IMG/VR virus record: IMGVR_UViG_3300008110_001209
Span: 1 to 27,340 of that record
DNA length: 27,340 nucleotides
Strand: one strand, 5' to 3'
Origin: a virus
Within the stretch, counting starts at the first letter, position 1. Each line of letters begins with the position of its first letter. Of the stretch, positions 19,703 through 27,261 are shown one piece after another. The notes below the pieces were generated by a model, which did no database searches, was not told the DNA's origin, and saw only the letters and a program-made list of their open reading frames with translations. The position numbers and the translations under genes were made by a program.

Positions 19703-21094
19703 ATGGCTAACACCAAAATATCCGATTTACCAAGCGGCGCACCCGCGCAATCGGGCGATTTGTTTGTCGTTGCGCGTTCTGGGTCAAACTACAAGCTAAC
19801 GCTCGCGCAGATATCGTCTGGTGGATCGACGTTCCTTGATGGTTCGTTCCGTGTTCAGAACACGAGCGATTCGACCAAGCAGTTTGCCTTTGATATTTCT
19901 GCGGTGGCTACGGGAACAACTCGCACGTGGATTATCCCAAACTCGTCTGACACGTTTGTTGGTTTAGCTGCAACGCAAACCTTAACCAACAAAACAATCT
20001 CCGGCGCGTCAAATACGATTACGAACGTATCGCTAAGTTCAGGCGTTACTGGAAACCTCCCTGTTACCAACTTAAACTCAGGCACGGGCGCATCAGCCGC
20101 AAGTTTTTGGCGTGGTGATGGCACTTGGGCGACTCCGGCAGGGTCTGGCGATATGGTGTTGGCAAGCGTCCAGACCGTCACGGGCGCTAAGACGTTCGGC
20201 TCGGCTGGTGCTGTCGGCAAACTTATCGTCGCTGGTGCAACTTCCGGCACGACAATAATTGACGCAACTGCCATTGCGGGTTCCGGTACAGTAACGCTTC
20301 CGACTACGGGAACGCTTGCCACTCTCGCGGGTTCGGAAACGCTTACCAACAAGACCCTAACGACTCCGGTACTAAACGGCATTCCTACGGGTACGGGTGT
20401 TGCAACTGCGGCAACGGTATCGACTCTTGCTCTACGAGACACCAGCGGCAACTTGACCGCTGTAAACGCCATTCTTGGCTACACGACAACAGCGACAGCG
20501 GCGGGAACAACGACGCTAACCGTCACCAGTTCGCAGACGCAAATCTTCACGGGTTCGACTACACAGACCGTTGTGCTTCCGGTCACAAGCACTTTGGCAT
20601 TAGGATTGACTTATCGCATAGTCAACAACTCCACTGGTAACGTCACGGTTCAATCGTCCGGCGCGAATAACATTCTTGTTATGTCCGGTGGGTCAGAGGC
20701 AATCTTTACCGTCATCCTAACTTCGGGAACTACGGCGGCATCGTGGATTCAAAATCAGATCACAACCAAGCACATCCCACAGAACTCACAGTCTGCCGCG
20801 TACACAACTGTTATCTCTGACGCCAACAAGCACATTCTGCATCCATCAGCAGATACCACGGCGCGGGTATTTACGATTGATAGTAACGCAAACGTGCCTT
20901 ATCCAATAGGTACGGCGATTACGTTTGTCAACCAAAACGCGGCGGGAACACTCACGATATCGATTACAACGGACACGATGCGACTAGCGGGCGCGGGAAC
21001 GACAGGATCACGAACGCTAACGGCTAACGGTATTGCGACGGCCTTAAAAGTCACAGCAACCGAATGGATTATTTCTGGAACCAACTTAACTTAA
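19703..21094 (+). CDS. Tail fibre protein
   Basis: 463 residues. It begins [25 protein letters not shown] (interrupted here only for length), the usual phage-fibre N-terminus (T.ISDLP....). Two fibre repeats with TLTNKT are present at about residues 92 and 212 ([16 protein letters not shown] and [20 protein letters not shown]), together with [16 protein letters not shown]. From about residue 258 comes [20 protein letters not shown], then [19 protein letters not shown], a beta module spread widely among viral surface proteins. It would form elongated trimers that recognise the host. No S74 or other self-cleaving chaperone is visible in this one. Few charged residues and an extreme Thr/Ser content are typical of fibres. 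Confidence 0.8.
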
Positions 21095-22194: not shown

Positions 22195-22656
22195 ATGAAT
22201 ATCAAAGCTAAAGCCGGATTAACCGCCGCAACCCTAGCCGCTGCCACGGCATTTATTGTTTCTTGGGAAGGGAACAAGATGAAGCCGTACAAAGATATGG
22301 CTGGAATTGATACGGCCTGCGCGGGCGTCACTAAGGGCATCGACTTCTCAAAGATTTACACGGCTAAAGAATGCGCCGAGATGAACGCCACACAGATACA
22401 AATCCACGCGCAAGAAGTCTTAGCGTGTGTAAAGCGTGACGTTACACAAGATGAACAAGTCGCACTTGTTTCGCTCGCGTATAACGCGGGATCGTCGGCT
22501 ATTTGTAAGTCGACTTTGATGCGAAAACTCAACGCAAACGAATCATATTGCGATGAGTATCTCCGCTGGAACTTGGTGAACGGCAAGCCCGTTCGTGGAT
22601 TAACAAACCGGCGCACAGCGGAACGCGCCTTATGTATCAGAGGAACGCAGCAATGA
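22195..22656 (+). CDS. SAR endolysin, GH24 lysozyme
   Basis: 153 residues. Residues about 7-22 form a weak, Ala/Thr/Gly-rich hydrophobic segment without a cleavage site, the hallmark of a signal-anchor-release (SAR) endolysin such as P1 Lyz. The catalytic triad of T4-type lysozymes is visible with correct spacing: E25 (WEG), D34 (YKDMAG) and T40 (IDTACAG), that is E-x8-D-x5-T. Later motifs DEQVALVSLAYNAGSSAICK, STLMRKLN and GLTNRRTAERALC complete the family. Cysteines at 42 and elsewhere could serve disulphide control. It degrades peptidoglycan once released into the periplasm. No Shine-Dalgarno; a hairpin lies upstream. The stop overlaps the holin start (ATGA). Confidence 0.9.
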   Translation: MNIKAKAGLTAATLAAATAFIVSWEGNKMKPYKDMAGIDTACAGVTKGIDFSKIYTAKECAEMNATQIQIHAQEVLACVKRDVTQDEQVALVSLAYNAGSSAICKSTLMRKLNANESYCDEYLRWNLVNGKPVRGLTNRRTAERALCIRGTQQ

Positions 22657-22859
22657 CACCAGAACGCCACCACATGATAGAGGAAGCCGTGAAAGCATCC
22701 CCACCCGCTGCCGTCGCTGGCATGACCATATTTGGCGTATCGCTGCCCGATTGGGCGGCGTTGCTTGCTTGTATATACACGGCGTGGTTACTTGGAGAGA
22801 AAGCGCTTCACTATTGGAATCGTCGGCAAGAAAAGAAACGTCGCCGGAGCGATAAGTGA
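22653..22859 (+). CDS. Holin (class II/pinholin-like)
   Basis: 68 residues from ATG 22653, preferred over 22632 because it overlaps the endolysin stop as ATGA. It has a short polar N-terminus, SPPAAVAGMTIFGVSLPDW, one clear membrane helix (about residues 27-44, DWAALLACIYTAWLL, possibly a second weak one before it) and a very basic tail (RRQEKKRRRSDK). This is the layout of small T7-type or pinholin holins that depolarise the membrane and trigger release of SAR endolysins. Its neighbours (endolysin before, spanins after) support this. The stop overlaps the GTG of the Rz gene. Confidence 0.8.
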   Translation: MTPERHHMIEEAVKASPPAAVAGMTIFGVSLPDWAALLACIYTAWLLGEKALHYWNRRQEKKRRRSDK

Positions 22860-23353
22860 TTTGGGCGCTGCTTATCCGCAATCCCCTAGCCTCTGCCCTC
22901 GGTGCGCTGCTAATCGCGCTTGGCGTTTATACGGGCTACCTAAAGCTAAATAACGCATACCTCACAATGCGGGTTGACTCGCTAGAGAGCATTGAGAAGC
23001 AACGCGACGAACAGGTGATAGCCGCACTCAAGCGCAACGCAATCAAGGTCGAACAGAACAAACGATTCACGAAAGGGCTGCAAGATGAGAATGAACGATT
23101 ACAAGCCGAAACAAAGCCTCTTATTGGTCGCATTGACGTTCTTACTCGCAAGCTGCGCGACGCCCAGCCTTGTTCCTTGTCCACCCTTACCAGATCCGCC
23201 GAAAGTCGCCCTAGCGCCCCTGCCGACAAGCTACCTGACACGGGCAGAGACATTTTTGACCGACTTGTTATCGAGTACGCAGACCTCGCCAAATCCGCAG
23301 AAGTAGTAAGGTTGCAAGCGCAAACGTGCCAAGCATTTATTAAGGGTCAATAA
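22856..23353 (+). CDS. Rz: i-spanin, Rz-like
   Basis: 165 residues from GTG 22856 (GTGA overlap with the holin stop). One N-terminal membrane helix (about residues 10-27, NPLASALGALLIALGVYTGY) is followed by a long periplasmic coiled coil (about 35-95) rich in Glu/Lys/Arg/Gln. This is the usual layout of an inner-membrane spanin. It contains the entire Rz1-like gene in the +1 frame. Rz and Rz1 bridge the two membranes and disrupt the outer membrane after peptidoglycan cleavage, so the host has an outer membrane. Confidence 0.8.
   Translation: MIWALLIRNPLASALGALLIALGVYTGYLKLNNAYLTMRVDSLESIEKQRDEQVIAALKRNAIKVEQNKRFTKGLQDENERLQAETKPLIGRIDVLTRKLRDAQPCSLSTLTRSAESRPSAPADKLPDTGRDIFDRLVIEYADLAKSAEVVRLQAQTCQAFIKGQ
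23085..23306 (+). CDS. Rz1: o-spanin lipoprotein, Rz1-like (nested in Rz)
   Basis: 73 residues, fully embedded in the Rz gene in another frame. A basic start (KPKQ), a hydrophobic core and the lipobox L21-A22-S23-C24 give a type II signal peptide; the mature protein would begin at C24 and is Pro-rich (PCPPLPDPPKV), as usual for Rz1. AAAGGG at 23072-23077 provides a ribosome site about 7 nt before the ATG. It should sit in the inner leaflet of the outer membrane and bind Rz through the periplasm. Confidence 0.85.
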   Translation: MRMNDYKPKQSLLLVALTFLLASCATPSLVPCPPLPDPPKVALAPLPTSYLTRAETFLTDLLSSTQTSPNPQK

Positions 23354-23788
23354 ATGACAACCATCGTTGCTAGTGTGAAGCATGGCTGTATGTGTTCTGA
23401 CTCTCGTATGACTTCCGGTCACGCAATGGTGAACAGTCGGAAGTTAGAAAGAATCGGCGGTTCCCTTTGGGGTGGCGCTGGTGACGCAGAGGCGATAGAG
23501 GAATTTTTCATTTGGGCGCGGGCAAGTTTTGACGAAAAGAAAATCCCCAAGTGGACAGGTGAAGATAGACCGGAGTTTGAGATGGTCGAACTCGGCTCCG
23601 CAGGAATCAGGCTTTGGTCTAGTCGTTGTGTACCCATCCCCGTAGACAATGAATTCTGGGCGATAGGTTCAGGTGGACTCGCTGCAATGGGCGCTCTATA
23701 CGCTGGCAAGAAGCCGCAAGACGCCGTTCGCATAGCGATTCTGTGTGATGAATATTCTGGCGGGGCTGTACGCACGCTGAAAAGATAA
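23354..23788 (+). CDS. Proteasome beta/HslV-like Ntn hydrolase
   Basis: 144 residues starting MTTIVASVKHGCMCSDSRM and continuing TSG. In proteasome beta subunits and HslV the mature chain begins with a nucleophilic Thr and carries DSR.T.G and a Lys; here T2 would become N-terminal after Met removal, D16 lies in SDSRMTSG and K30 in NSRKLERI. Further matches are GGSLWGGAGDAEAIEEF, FWAIGSGGLAAMGALYAG and PQDAVRIAILCDEYSGG (GSG and the conserved C-terminal helix). There is no propeptide. It is shorter than HslV (about 175). Peptidase activity, a ring, or an ATPase partner is not shown; no unfoldase gene is seen nearby. It lies between the spanins and a phosphoesterase gene; the TAATG overlap links it to the latter. 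Confidence 0.8.
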   Translation: MTTIVASVKHGCMCSDSRMTSGHAMVNSRKLERIGGSLWGGAGDAEAIEEFFIWARASFDEKKIPKWTGEDRPEFEMVELGSAGIRLWSSRCVPIPVDNEFWAIGSGGLAAMGALYAGKKPQDAVRIAILCDEYSGGAVRTLKR

Positions 23789-24675
23789 TGCCGACTCCCC
23801 CGCTAAGTAGAGAACTCGCGCAAGAAGCCCTTAACCTTTTCGAGAAACATGGGCGCAGCTTCAAGATAGCCGCGTCTCACTCTGGCCTAAGTGATATGGG
23901 CTTTCGGCGCAGGGTAGACGCAGCGCACCGATACAGACTAGACCCCGAAATCGCCAAAGAACTGCCAACGCTTTCGGGTAAAGGACTCCGAGTTCTGGCG
24001 ATTCCCGACCTACACGCCCCCTTCCAGCATCCCGACGCCCTAGACTTTCTAAAGGCTGTCCGCGATCAGTTCACGCCCCAGCGTATCGTCTGCCTCGGTG
24101 ACGAATTAGACCAACACGCAATATCGCAGCATGACCCCGATCCCGATGGTTATTCAGCAGGACACGAACTAAACGTGGGCTTGGAGTTTATGCAGGAACT
24201 CTACAAGATTTTCCCCGTATGCGCGGTTGTCGAATCAAATCACGGCGTTAGACCGTTCAAACGGGCGTATAGGGCTGGATTACCCAAAGCCTATCTGAAG
24301 GACTATCACGACTTCATGAGTGCCCCAAAGGGCTGGTATTGGCAGCATAAGGTGGAAATTGACGGGGTTGTGTATATTCACGGCGAAGGGTACTTAGGCA
24401 AAGACGCCGCAATGAATTGCGCTAAAGACAACATGAAGCCCGTTGTTATTGGTCACGTTCACGGGTTCGCCGGGGTGCAGTATTTTAACAACGGCGAAAA
24501 GCAGATATGGGGCATGAACGCCGGATGCCTGATCGACTCGGACAGCTACGCAATGAAGTACGCCAAACACCATCGGTCTAAAGCCGTTCTCGGTGTCGGC
24601 CTGATAGATAAAGGGGTTCCGCTTTACTTCCCAATGAGGCTTGATGACAAGAAACGATGGACGGGGCAAATATGA
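23788..24675 (+). CDS. Calcineurin-like metallophosphoesterase with N-terminal HTH-like region
   Basis: 295 residues. Residues about 5-50 (ELAQEALNLFEKHGRSFKIA, then ASHSGLSDMGFRRRVDAA) look like a helix-turn-helix of the type that precedes phage phosphoesterases. The metal motifs are in order: D74-x-H76 (DLHAPF), G104-D105-x2-D108 (GDELD), N151-H152 (SNHG, in place of GNH[DE]), H198 (HGE) and G222-H-x-H225 (GHVH). This set binds two metal ions and would hydrolyse a phosphoester, perhaps nucleic acid given the HTH-like part; the substrate is unknown. The start overlaps the previous stop (TAATG) and the stop overlaps the next start (ATGA). Confidence 0.85.
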   Translation: MPTPPLSRELAQEALNLFEKHGRSFKIAASHSGLSDMGFRRRVDAAHRYRLDPEIAKELPTLSGKGLRVLAIPDLHAPFQHPDALDFLKAVRDQFTPQRIVCLGDELDQHAISQHDPDPDGYSAGHELNVGLEFMQELYKIFPVCAVVESNHGVRPFKRAYRAGLPKAYLKDYHDFMSAPKGWYWQHKVEIDGVVYIHGEGYLGKDAAMNCAKDNMKPVVIGHVHGFAGVQYFNNGEKQIWGMNAGCLIDSDSYAMKYAKHHRSKAVLGVGLIDKGVPLYFPMRLDDKKRWTGQI

Positions 24676-24905: not shown

Positions 24906-25300
24906 CGCAACTTGGTAGGTAAGATAGATTGTGGTGGCGGGGCTTGATACCCGCTTGCGATCTACACTACTCGCCGGTCGCTCACTGGTAAGGCCGCTAA
25001 GCCCTCAGCTCTTGCCGCGTGTTGCCATTCCACGCCGCACCACAAGTCAGGAAACGGGCCGCAAGTTAGTGATTAGCTAACAGGGGAGAGTCGTGTTCCA
25101 TTCCCTGATTTGTGATGACTCCTTACGGGAGTCAGTCGGCCTCTTTAGCGGGGCTTCCGCAACTTTCATGCGCTGCGTCATAGGCTGTCAGTTCGGTTAG
25201 TTCGCGTCACTACTGCCCCTAACGGGGGCAAGTCGCCTGCTGAAACAGGACGTATGCTGATTAGCTGACGTTCGCAGCTTTGTGGCACCGATCAGCACGG
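24906..25300. other. Hairpin-rich convergent intergenic region, possible structured RNA
   Basis: About 395 bp with no convincing gene. Folds seen on the plus strand: TAGATTG...CGATCTA (24925-24964) enclosing GCGGG...CCCGC (24937-24954); CAGGGGA...TTCCCTG (25081-25107, one G-U); GACTCC-TTACG-GGAGTC (25117-25133); TGCCCC-TAACG-GGGGCA (25214-25230); CCTG...CAGG (25236-25249). The two 6-bp hairpins with loops TTACG and TAACG are both followed within a few bases by AGTCG(G)CCT, so the motif appears twice 97 bp apart. None has a U-tract for either direction. It could be bidirectional termination, mRNA 3' ends or an unknown structured RNA; it contains only very short reading frames. Confidence 0.5.
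25077..25181 (-). CDS. Possible 34-residue leftward peptide
   Basis: A short frame with two early Met residues (MTQRMKVAEAPLKRPTDSRK) ending TTLPC. It is preceded 18 nt upstream by a copy of TAGTGACGCGAAC, the 13-mer that also precedes the better supported gene at 25450. No Shine-Dalgarno is visible, and its coding strand includes one arm set of a hairpin (25117-25133). Very tentative; the region may be non-coding. Confidence 0.15.
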   Translation of the reverse strand: MTQRMKVAEAPLKRPTDSRKESSQIREWNTTLPC

Positions 25301-25450
25301 TTAGCAAGGCAAGCGCTGCCCTGATTCAAATTTTTCTCGTTCGTCCATCGCGTTGTGTACGCAAACTCCGTCATCAACTGTTGGGCTGCACCAGCAGTCT
25401 CGTGATCTATCGTGTTCGCGCAAATCATCAATCGGTAAAACATGAATCAT
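25301..25450 (-). CDS. Small conserved phage protein (49 residues)
   Basis: ATG at 25450 (leftward) with GGGGA six bases upstream, stop TAA at 25303-25301. The product begins MIHVLPIDDLREHDRSRDCW and continues CSPTVDDGVCVHNAMDEREK, then FE. I recognise this arrangement (HV.P.NDLREH..S..CWC.P.V......V.HN.MDGRE.(Y/F)E) as a very common small phage protein of unknown function. The conserved Cys/His residues (C19, C21, C30, H32) might bind metal. It begins a short leftward transcription unit with its own weak promoter-like site (25478-25486). The longer overlapping frame at 25261-25443 is rejected in its favour. Confidence 0.75.
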   Translation of the reverse strand: MIHVLPIDDLREHDRSRDCWCSPTVDDGVCVHNAMDEREKFESGQRLPC

Positions 25451-25459
25451 TTTTTCCCC

Positions 25460-25472
25460 GTTCGCGTCACTA
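25460..25472. repeat. 13-bp direct repeat GTTCGCGTCACTA, copy 2 (copy 1 at 25200-25212)
   Basis: GTTCGCGTCACTA is found at 25200-25212 and 25460-25472. On the leftward strand each copy (TAGTGACGCGAAC) lies shortly upstream of an ATG (25450 and 25181). It may be a shared leader or protein-binding element, or the trace of a local duplication. One chance 13-mer repeat would not surprise in 27 kb, but two copies in 270 bp are noteworthy. Confidence 0.5.
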
Positions 25473-25477
25473 GCGCG

Positions 25478-25486
25478 AGTGTATCA
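25478..25486 (-). promoter_or_regulatory. Extended -10 promoter-like site for the 49-residue gene
   Basis: Leftward TGATACACT (25486 to 25478): TACACT as -10 with TG one base upstream. No good -35 hexamer at 16-18 bp. Transcription would start near 25471, at the TAGTGACGCGAAC 13-mer, giving a leader of about 20 nt. Modest support. Confidence 0.35.
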
Positions 25487-25682
25487 CAATTTACCCAACA
25501 TCATGCGTATATGGGGATTACGTGACTCGTTGCGTATGCTATACGCATATTGCATATAAACGGCGCTTTCTTTAACACGATCTGGAAACGTGTCTCATAT
25601 TTAAGGTTTCTTTATCATGTGCCATATCTGGCGCGTATGGCGCATATTTACGGTTTTTGCGCCATTGATGGCGTGGGGTCGC

Positions 25683-26015
25683 TCATTTCGGCTCCTGTTC
25701 TGCTATGGCTGCGGCGATTGGCGGTGCTGGTAGCGGTTTCCAGTGGGTGGGAGTTTCGGTGAGCGCCCCGCCATAGCCAAAGATGCGCCACCAAGTCAAG
25801 TTGCCAACGTCACCCCATGTAACGATATAGGTGTTTTTGTACTCGGCACAGTGAACCATTATGGCCCTTGATGTTTTGGGCGCACTCTCAATCGGTTGCC
25901 ACTCGGCATCCCTTTTGTAGGCTGCAAGTTCGGCGGTGAGTGCTTCGACTTTATTGACAAGCTCGAAAATTGCTACGCTTTTATTTTTTTTCGCTAGATA
26001 GTAGGATAGGCTCAT
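25683..26015 (-). CDS. DUF551-like accessory protein
   Basis: 110 residues from ATG 26015 (leftward), which overlaps the stop of the gene before it (ATGA). After a helical N-terminus (MSLSYYLAKKNKSVAIFELV) comes AEWQPIESAPKTSRAIMVHC, a strand VTWGDVGNLTWWRIFGYGG and PTHWKPLPAPP. The W.PI..AP......W......PTHW.PLP.PP layout is the DUF551 family, frequent in phage early operons; its function is unknown. The last residues AAIAEQEP are also the end of the neighbouring protein, encoded by a 34-bp near-perfect repeat. Confidence 0.8.
   Translation of the reverse strand: MSLSYYLAKKNKSVAIFELVNKVEALTAELAAYKRDAEWQPIESAPKTSRAIMVHCAEYKNTYIVTWGDVGNLTWWRIFGYGGALTETPTHWKPLPAPPIAAAIAEQEPK
25687..25720. repeat. 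34-bp repeat, copy 1 (copy 2 at 26019-26052)
   Basis: TTCGGCTCCTGTTCTGCTAT and the following 14 bases are repeated at 26019-26052 with one mismatch (C25715 versus T26047). Both copies encode the C-terminal residues AAIAEQEP of two adjacent leftward genes, ending just before their stop codons. This suggests duplication of gene ends or in-frame fusion and reassortment of modules. Confidence 0.9.
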
Positions 26016-26815
26016 TTGTTCGGCTCCTGTTCTGCTATGGCTGCGGTGATTGCTGCGCCTCGGCCAATTAGTCCGCATCGAGCCCTATTGCTTTCGTTGT
26101 CGCGCTCCATAGCTTTGAACAAGGCAATACAAGCGTTACGAGTGTGCGGACTTCCGCCCCCGCCAAAGCCAGTCGTGCAAAACTCAACAGAGCCGCCAGT
26201 GTCGTAGCTGTTAGGGTCCGGAACAATCGCCACGATTACATCACCATCGTTATCAAACGCAACGCGAAGTCTTCCTAATGGCGACATATCCCCAAGCCGC
26301 TCAACGAAATTCTGCGATCCCCAGCCTTCCGGCATGGATTCGGTCGGTTGCCATTCAGCATCCTTTTTGTCAGGCTCTACTGAGGCTGGTGGGGTGGTGT
26401 CACGCGCTGCAATCGTGCGCTCTGCCCATCGCACAGCCTTTTGCATGGTTTTAATGTCGCACGGGCAGTAAGGGTTGTTGACGCTGAATATCTCCTGCCG
26501 ACCTTGCTCTATCTCAGCGTCTGTCAGTCGCGCAACAGGCTCTACTGAGGCTAGTGGGGTGGTGAATAGCGCCATATCGCAATCACTGTATTTCTTGCGC
26601 CACCCGTTGAACGACTGTCCCCGCGCAAGCGCATCGTGGAACTCTTTAGAGTTAGCCCACGCAACAGGCCCTACTGGGGTGGCTTGTGCGGGTTGCCCGT
26701 TCACTGTTGCGACGATCTGCCCCCACTGTTCAGGCGTCACAAAGCCCTCAAGCGATGACCGTGCGCCCTTGCTGACCAACGAAATTTTTATCTTGGCTCG
26801 TTCTCTATCGCTCAT
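26012..26815 (-). CDS. Modular hypothetical accessory protein
   Basis: 267 residues from ATG 26815 (leftward), chosen because it overlaps the stop of the preceding gene (ATGA). Regions: a basic start (MSDRERAKIKISLVSKGARS) with FVTPEQWGQIVATVNG; a segment with PVARLTDAEIEQGRQEIF and NNPYCPCDIKTMQKAVRWAE, typical of phage accessory proteins; a short DUF551-like start KDAEWQPTESMPEG without the rest of that domain; then VRVAFDNDGDVI-like strands and GGSVEFCTTGFGGGGSPHTR, a pattern seen in phage proteins of unknown function. Linker words PLASVEPVARL and PPASVEPDKKDAEWQ recur, as if built from repeated modules. It ends with the shared AAIAEQEPNK. Confidence 0.7.
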   Translation of the reverse strand: MSDRERAKIKISLVSKGARSSLEGFVTPEQWGQIVATVNGQPAQATPVGPVAWANSKEFHDALARGQSFNGWRKKYSDCDMALFTTPLASVEPVARLTDAEIEQGRQEIFSVNNPYCPCDIKTMQKAVRWAERTIAARDTTPPASVEPDKKDAEWQPTESMPEGWGSQNFVERLGDMSPLGRLRVAFDNDGDVIVAIVPDPNSYDTGGSVEFCTTGFGGGGSPHTRNACIALFKAMERDNESNRARCGLIGRGAAITAAIAEQEPNK

Positions 26816-27261
26816 GGCTTTGTGTCCTTTAAGGCTCGGATATTGCCGGCGCATTGCTCGGCGGCTCTTGCTTGCGCCCAAACACGCTCACGGGTTTCGG
26901 AGTTTTCAGGGTGCAAGTTACCCGCTTTTGCGTAGACAGCATTAACCTCGTTGCACTCACGTATGGCCTCATCTAGCACATCGCTGCGTCGTTGCTGCTC
27001 CCATGCCGCTACATCGGCTTGGGTGGAGGTTGCGGCTAGGGCGGCCAGCGCCAATTTGCGCGTCGGCGTTTGCATTGATAGCTGCGGACTTACAAAAGCG
27101 TTCAGCGCCTCCCGCAGCATGGCGATCTGCGCAGCCTGTCGGTCTAGTTCTGCGTTTGCCTCATAGACCGTATGCGCGTACTTGCTGAAATTGGTCGTTC
27201 CCGTTAGCACTTCTGCCAGCCGGTCTAGGCGCTTGGTTAGTGTTGCCTTATCGTTACTCAT
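26812..27261 (-). CDS. Hypothetical coiled-coil accessory protein
   Basis: 149 residues from ATG 27261 (leftward), overlapping the stop of the upstream gene (ATGA). Mostly helical: LTKRLDRLAEVLTGTTNFSK, a coiled coil with ANAELDRQAAQIAMLREALN, an Ala/Thr linker and a second helical region (EAIRECNEVNAVYAKAGNLH). Such proteins are common in phage early operons (Ea22-like in style), and their function is unknown. The stop overlaps the start of the next gene. Confidence 0.65.
   Translation of the reverse strand: MSNDKATLTKRLDRLAEVLTGTTNFSKYAHTVYEANAELDRQAAQIAMLREALNAFVSPQLSMQTPTRKLALAALAATSTQADVAAWEQQRRSDVLDEAIRECNEVNAVYAKAGNLHPENSETRERVWAQARAAEQCAGNIRALKDTKP

Follow-up and report, generated by a model that had tools for sequence, protein, structure and literature searches.

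Previous work described PPH, a phage family of proteasome homologs whose job is uncharacterised, and, in the same paper, RPC, a PPH relative carrying a C-terminal extension (Fuchs 2021). PPH proteins have about 140 residues, a proteasome fold that lacks helix H2 and keeps H1, H3 and H4, and the Thr1/Asp17/Lys33 residues without a propeptide, and they come from tailed phages and prophages (Fuchs 2021). The other relevant proteasome homologs are HslV (ClpQ) of HslUV, an HslU-stimulated peptidase that forms a double hexameric ring, is encoded with or paired to HslU and has subunits of about 170 residues with both helix pairs, the beta-proteobacterial proteasome homolog BPH (PDB 5ovs, 5ovu), with chains of about 190-200 residues that contain H2 (PMC8665760), and connectase, likewise a proteasome homolog with an N-terminal Thr, in which H1 and H2 are missing and a helical insertion lies over the active site (PMC8665760). 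Our literature search for PPH function found no paper, and one Citromicrobium phage paper lists 'BPH' without experiment.

The gene product and its family

The window, meaning the whole stretch of 27,340 bases that was analysed, is an IMG/VR virus record and probably a fragment, in which portal, head, connector, tail and lysis genes were identified. The forward-strand ORF at 23354-23788 has an ATG start and encodes 144 residues that begin MTTIVASVKHGCMCSDSRMTSGH, with the N-terminal letters MTTIVASVKHGCMCSDSRMTSG. All of the motifs that a preliminary description had listed were present in it, namely Thr2, D16-S17-R18-x-T20-x-G22, Lys30, G105-S106-G107 and, at the C-terminus, D132-E-Y-S135-G-G, which resembles the Asp166/Ser169 motif of proteasome beta subunits; such a set of motifs is far beyond chance. 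The ATG directly precedes the Thr codon and a propeptide is absent, as had been claimed, and Thr2, after Met removal, is the predicted nucleophile, with Asp16, Lys30, Ser106, Asp132 and Ser135 as the other predicted active-site residues.

PHROG 1040 ('peptidase HslV family') matched the product over its whole length (E = 1.5e-26). The same profile also gave matches in control genomes, among them E. coli and archaea; therefore a match to it does not establish HslV, and automatic annotation based on it assigns HslV too often in phages. The Pfam Proteasome profile reached 15.6 bits, under its curated cut-off of 22.4, and a 20S proteasome beta subunit was rejected on this score. Searched against PDB chains, a profile of the family found BPH, which forms a double ring, as its best match (E = 1.3e-12), then HslV (5.4e-11) and also 20S beta subunits, and its alignment to 1m4y placed Asp16, Lys30 and Ser106 on HslV Asp17, Lys33 and Ser124.

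Structure prediction without relatives was useless (pLDDT 31), and with 55 IMG/VR relatives AlphaFold2 gave a model with pLDDT 95 and pTM 0.88. The structural comparison with HslV and 20S beta subunits that had been suggested placed HslV first (4g4e, Z 18.9, 141 residues, 2.7 A) and 20S beta subunits next, and the top 50 Foldseek matches in the PDB were all proteasome, HslV or BPH chains, which bears out the proposed proteasome/HslV-type Ntn fold. Residue 2 of the model superposes on residue 1 of the solved chains, HslV included, which is the catalytic Thr1, and Asp and Lys are in place, so the model agrees with the claim of a Thr at the mature N-terminus. By predicted fold and residue position, the product belongs to the Ntn hydrolase superfamily, which is defined by a catalytic N-terminal nucleophile on an alpha-beta-beta-alpha fold. 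Helices were predicted at H1 (45-56), H3 (108-116) and H4 (121-131) only, with none at the place of H2.

The product fits PPH, an already-published phage family, by every tested published feature: it has 144 residues, its AlphaFold2 model contains H1, H3 and H4 without H2, Thr2/Asp16/Lys30 stand in the places of Thr1/Asp17/Lys33 without a propeptide, and the portal, head, tail and lysis genes of the window indicate a tailed phage or prophage (Fuchs 2021). No definite difference from PPH appeared in this comparison, which was made by published description, not by sequence set. The preliminary description had called the protein HslV-like, and this stands for the fold and for the shared Thr1-Asp17-Lys33-Ser124 residues; it does not stand for HslV itself, from which the protein differs in being about 30 residues shorter, in lacking H2, in a structure-based identity of about 20-27% and, apparently, in having no HslU gene. 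The lack of H2 and the shorter chain likewise separate it from BPH. Phage phi92 gp58, which is probably an RPC, has the catalytic domain in common with the window protein (31% identity in the part that both contain), but it has 217 residues with a C-terminal extension, whereas the window protein stops after the last strand.

Among 56 aligned sequences, Lys30 was invariant, residue 2 was Thr in 52 and Ser in 4, Ser106 was kept in 46 and Asp132 in 42, and position 135 was Ser or Thr in 44 and Cys or Ala in 12. The patterns used for the viral search did not contain residues 2, 30, 106, 132 and 135, although the choice of start sites leaned to Thr at position 2; Asp16 belonged to the search pattern, and its invariance therefore proves little. 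The dN/dS ratio was 0.06-0.33 in 36 of 37 close pairs, the remaining pair having no usable dS, and the family is thus under protein-level selection. A dead or degenerate enzyme was ruled out by this ratio and by the conserved active site. Identity of the window protein to the relatives found was only about 27-38%; exact peptide patterns recovered no close relatives of PPH or of the adjacent phosphoesterase from viral contigs, and no near-identical phage DNA was found.

The lysis region of the window

Directly upstream of PPH on the same strand we found the lysis neighbours that had been reported: an endolysin of the phage lysozyme type with an N-terminal hydrophobic segment (22195-22656; PHROG 7, 2.8e-42; PF00959, 7.1e-31), a holin (22632-22859; PHROG 920, 5.4e-15; PF10746 weak, below cut-off) and a putative Rz-like inner-membrane spanin (22856-23353), which was recognised by a weak PHROG 1403 match (0.0014), its position and an N-terminal hydrophobic segment. 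Out of frame within Rz lies a candidate Rz1 outer-membrane lipoprotein (23085-23306, forward), read from its LLASC lipobox and Pro-rich sequence; a PHROG search of this ORF gave no match. The PPH ATG immediately follows the Rz stop codon, and the gene is located inside this lysis region, about 19 kb from the head genes.

Downstream, the ATG of a calcineurin-like metallophosphoesterase (23788-24675, forward; PHROG 221, 4.3e-56; PF00149 weak, below cut-off) overlaps the PPH stop by one base (TAATG). The claimed coupling to a phosphoesterase thus holds in the window, but not as a general partnership, which we rejected since PHROG 221 was present in just 5 of 50 PPH records, one of them by a very weak match; it lay within 3 kb of PPH in 4 of those 5, including the window and the weak match. 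The absence of a cognate AAA+ ATPase, also claimed, was borne out for the record: no AAA_2 protein (HslU/ClpX type) exceeded the cut-off in the window or in the other 49 PPH records, although records may be incomplete and the phage could use the HslU of its host.

Further to the right, about 0.8 kb without a convincing gene (24906-25682) separates the rightward late genes from the leftward right-end genes, and an Rfam scan gave no match there and nothing relevant overall. The leftward ORFs at 25683-26078 and 26012-26881 both carry the motif AEWQPxESxP, which looks like the duplication of a small domain. The tRNA scan of the window gave nothing relevant; ARAGORN called a 97-base tRNA-Pro at 20119-20215, which lies inside a repetitive structural gene (19703-21094) and is probably spurious.

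Genomic contexts across the family

The survey covered 80 PPH loci from viral contigs in 59 clusters, the records being mostly fragments and the gene calls simple ORF picks. The PPH start lay no more than 10 nt from the upstream gene, or overlapped it, in 36 of 53 usable loci, so that PPH usually sits inside an operon. Terminase large subunit (TerL), portal, major head and head-tail adaptor genes were the commonest named families among about 220 immediate neighbours, scaffolding genes also occurring, and there was no single conserved partner, no family exceeding 5 of about 110 per side. TerL was located within 1 kb of PPH in 8 of 30 records, compared with 1.76 for random placement (P = 2e-4), a null that ignores module order, and three of the eight cases (L022, L026, L054) belong to one lineage. 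When four Pfam families of endolysin were taken together, 9 of 25 records including the window and 8 of 24 without it (expected 3.9, P = 0.025, weakly significant) had one within 3 kb of PPH; for PF00959 lysozymes alone the count was 3 of 11 viral records (expected 1.45, P 0.16, not significant). In a separate viral clade, PPH adjoins a PF00959 lysozyme (L008) or an M15 peptidase (L009 and L010). No spanin was recognised among the upstream neighbours of nine viral loci. Closeness to terminase or endolysin genes could be simple synteny, because late genes cluster in all tailed phages.

The PPH protein was also the query in a search of 247 genomes from the taxonomic family to which a Lysobacter MAG belongs. 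At the similarity used PPH was rare in bacteria, with 5 of 247 genomes in the family and 4 of 369 in the class, two of these marginal. The five prophage loci, which are divergent and were chosen solely by PPH similarity, all had an endolysin within 2 kb of PPH, a lysozyme in four and an amidase in one, so the lysis neighbourhood of the window recurs in related prophages. The gene orders were PPH, holin, lysozyme and a spanin-like gene in L114; TerL, lysozyme and PPH in L115, where the PPH GTG overlaps the lysozyme stop; PPH, a holin-like gene, lysozyme, Rz and TerL in L116; TerL, two small membrane proteins, amidase and PPH in L117, where the PPH ATG overlaps the amidase stop; and lysozyme, an Rz-like gene, others, a lipoprotein-like ORF and PPH in L118. 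With the window (lysozyme, holin, Rz/Rz1, PPH) there are six such loci. The arrangement is not one inherited block, because it involves two unrelated kinds of endolysin and terminases from different families (phrog_38 and phrog_2). In a prophage of 40 kb, the stretch no more than 3 kb away from any one gene makes up about 0.16 of the length, so that five of five by chance would be about 1e-4, a post hoc estimate with an assumed prophage length. The recurrent closeness of PPH to endolysins in prophages and of PPH to TerL in metagenomic viruses is what is new here.

Other contexts are unlike lysis. The Caulobacter jumbo phages (Bertelyvirus) carry PPH in terminal repeats, at the start of the record, and phi92-like phages have PPH copies beside PhoH and sugar-nucleotide genes; with such placements, action at the lysis stage cannot be a property of every family member. 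One jumbo phage record (IMGVR_UViG_2974567213) has two PPH copies, L042 and L046, near its two ends, and the annotated records of Caulobacter phages C1 and RB23 mark this region as terminal repeats. Within the set L001, L004, L005 and L014, phi92 and Vibrio phage 1.187.O have a PhoH-like ATPase gene followed by one small gene and then by an extended PPH relative; the gene layout is shared by Citrobacter phage Tr1 and L014, PhoH having been recognised in phi92 and the Vibrio phage. A proteasome homolog may here have an ATPase as its neighbour.

Rhizobium leguminosarum plasmid pRL23b2 also carries a PPH-like gene (L002, 6001-6534), with the annotation 'peptidase S14', in a nif/nod island, after nifA, nifB, a 4Fe-4S protein gene, nifT and a hypothetical gene. 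Fourteen Rhizobium plasmid records have a PPH-like match of this kind, and none at close similarity was found in a sample of 247 genomes from the family of Shinella. The plasmid gene seems to be a copy that the host has adopted within a nitrogen-fixation cluster.

Probable role of the protein

Our strongest claim is that the product is an Ntn hydrolase of the PPH type and very probably active. We further lean, with real reservation, to a fuller reading in which this minimal enzyme is made late and acts as an ATP-independent peptidase at the packaging or lysis stage, not as an HslU partner. The host would remove Met1 and leave Thr2 as the N-terminal nucleophile, Lys30 and Asp16 would assist it, Ser106, Asp132 and Ser135 would complete the site, and maturation would need no propeptide cleavage. 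The protein would be made from the lysis/packaging transcript and would act, as infection ends, on a single protein or a small number of them, a late action that we infer from gene position. Kinship makes a peptidase likely; counting against it, proteasome homologs include a few ligases, such as connectase, and some of the others could be hydrolases that do not cleave proteins. The link to lysis is suggestive for the branch of the window and not for the whole family. A more specific proposal, in which a dedicated, stand-alone lysis-stage protease translationally coupled to endolysin or spanin genes decides when lysis occurs or how complete it is by cutting a lysis protein, the inhibitor of one or a host envelope protein, seems to us quite unlikely. 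We know of no description of such a proteolytic component in phage lysis cassettes.

Other roles were weighed against the preferred one. If PPH cleaved a structural or scaffolding protein in head or tail maturation, its commonest named neighbours (TerL, portal, major head, head-tail adaptor and scaffolding genes) and the excess of nearby TerL over random placement would be accounted for; however, any late region is rich in head genes, the window gene is far from its own head genes, and three neighbour proteins match the dedicated head maturation protease family phrog_595, so that PPH is not a general substitute for that protease. We regard virion processing as unlikely, and replacement of the head maturation protease, given the phrog_595 matches, as unsupported. 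Equally unlikely is a role against the host, in which PPH would break down or process one of its defence, stress or regulatory proteins. Terminal repeats often hold pre-early genes, and both the Caulobacter jumbo phage copies and the sporadic, accessory distribution of PPH would fit such a function, but in the window and its relatives PPH is part of late modules and is coupled to lysis genes, and no defence or counter-defence gene was recognised beside PPH, although no dedicated defence-library search was made.

The fold, closest to HslV, raises the idea that PPH replaces host HslV on host HslU or another unfoldase, and all seven bacterial genomes in which PPH occurs have a second PHROG 1040 match, presumably to the HslV of the bacterium or to something similar. 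PPH, however, lacks helix H2, in a region that bears much of the ring surface (Fuchs 2021). That region would also serve in HslU docking, and with no phage HslU found among the 50 records such a partnership is very improbable. No more credible is protein ligation or transpeptidation of the kind carried out by connectase, a proteasome homolog that shares the Thr1 chemistry (PMC8665760): PPH keeps H1, and by its length and predicted structure, which has no helices before residue 45, it is without the two-helix insertion between strands 3 and 4 that is the connectase signature (PMC8665760).

PPH is among the smallest proteasome folds and would be useful for studies of minimal catalysis and assembly. 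Moreover, its recurrent position in lysis cassettes, with starts overlapping endolysin stops in unrelated cassettes, is a hint of when PPH acts.
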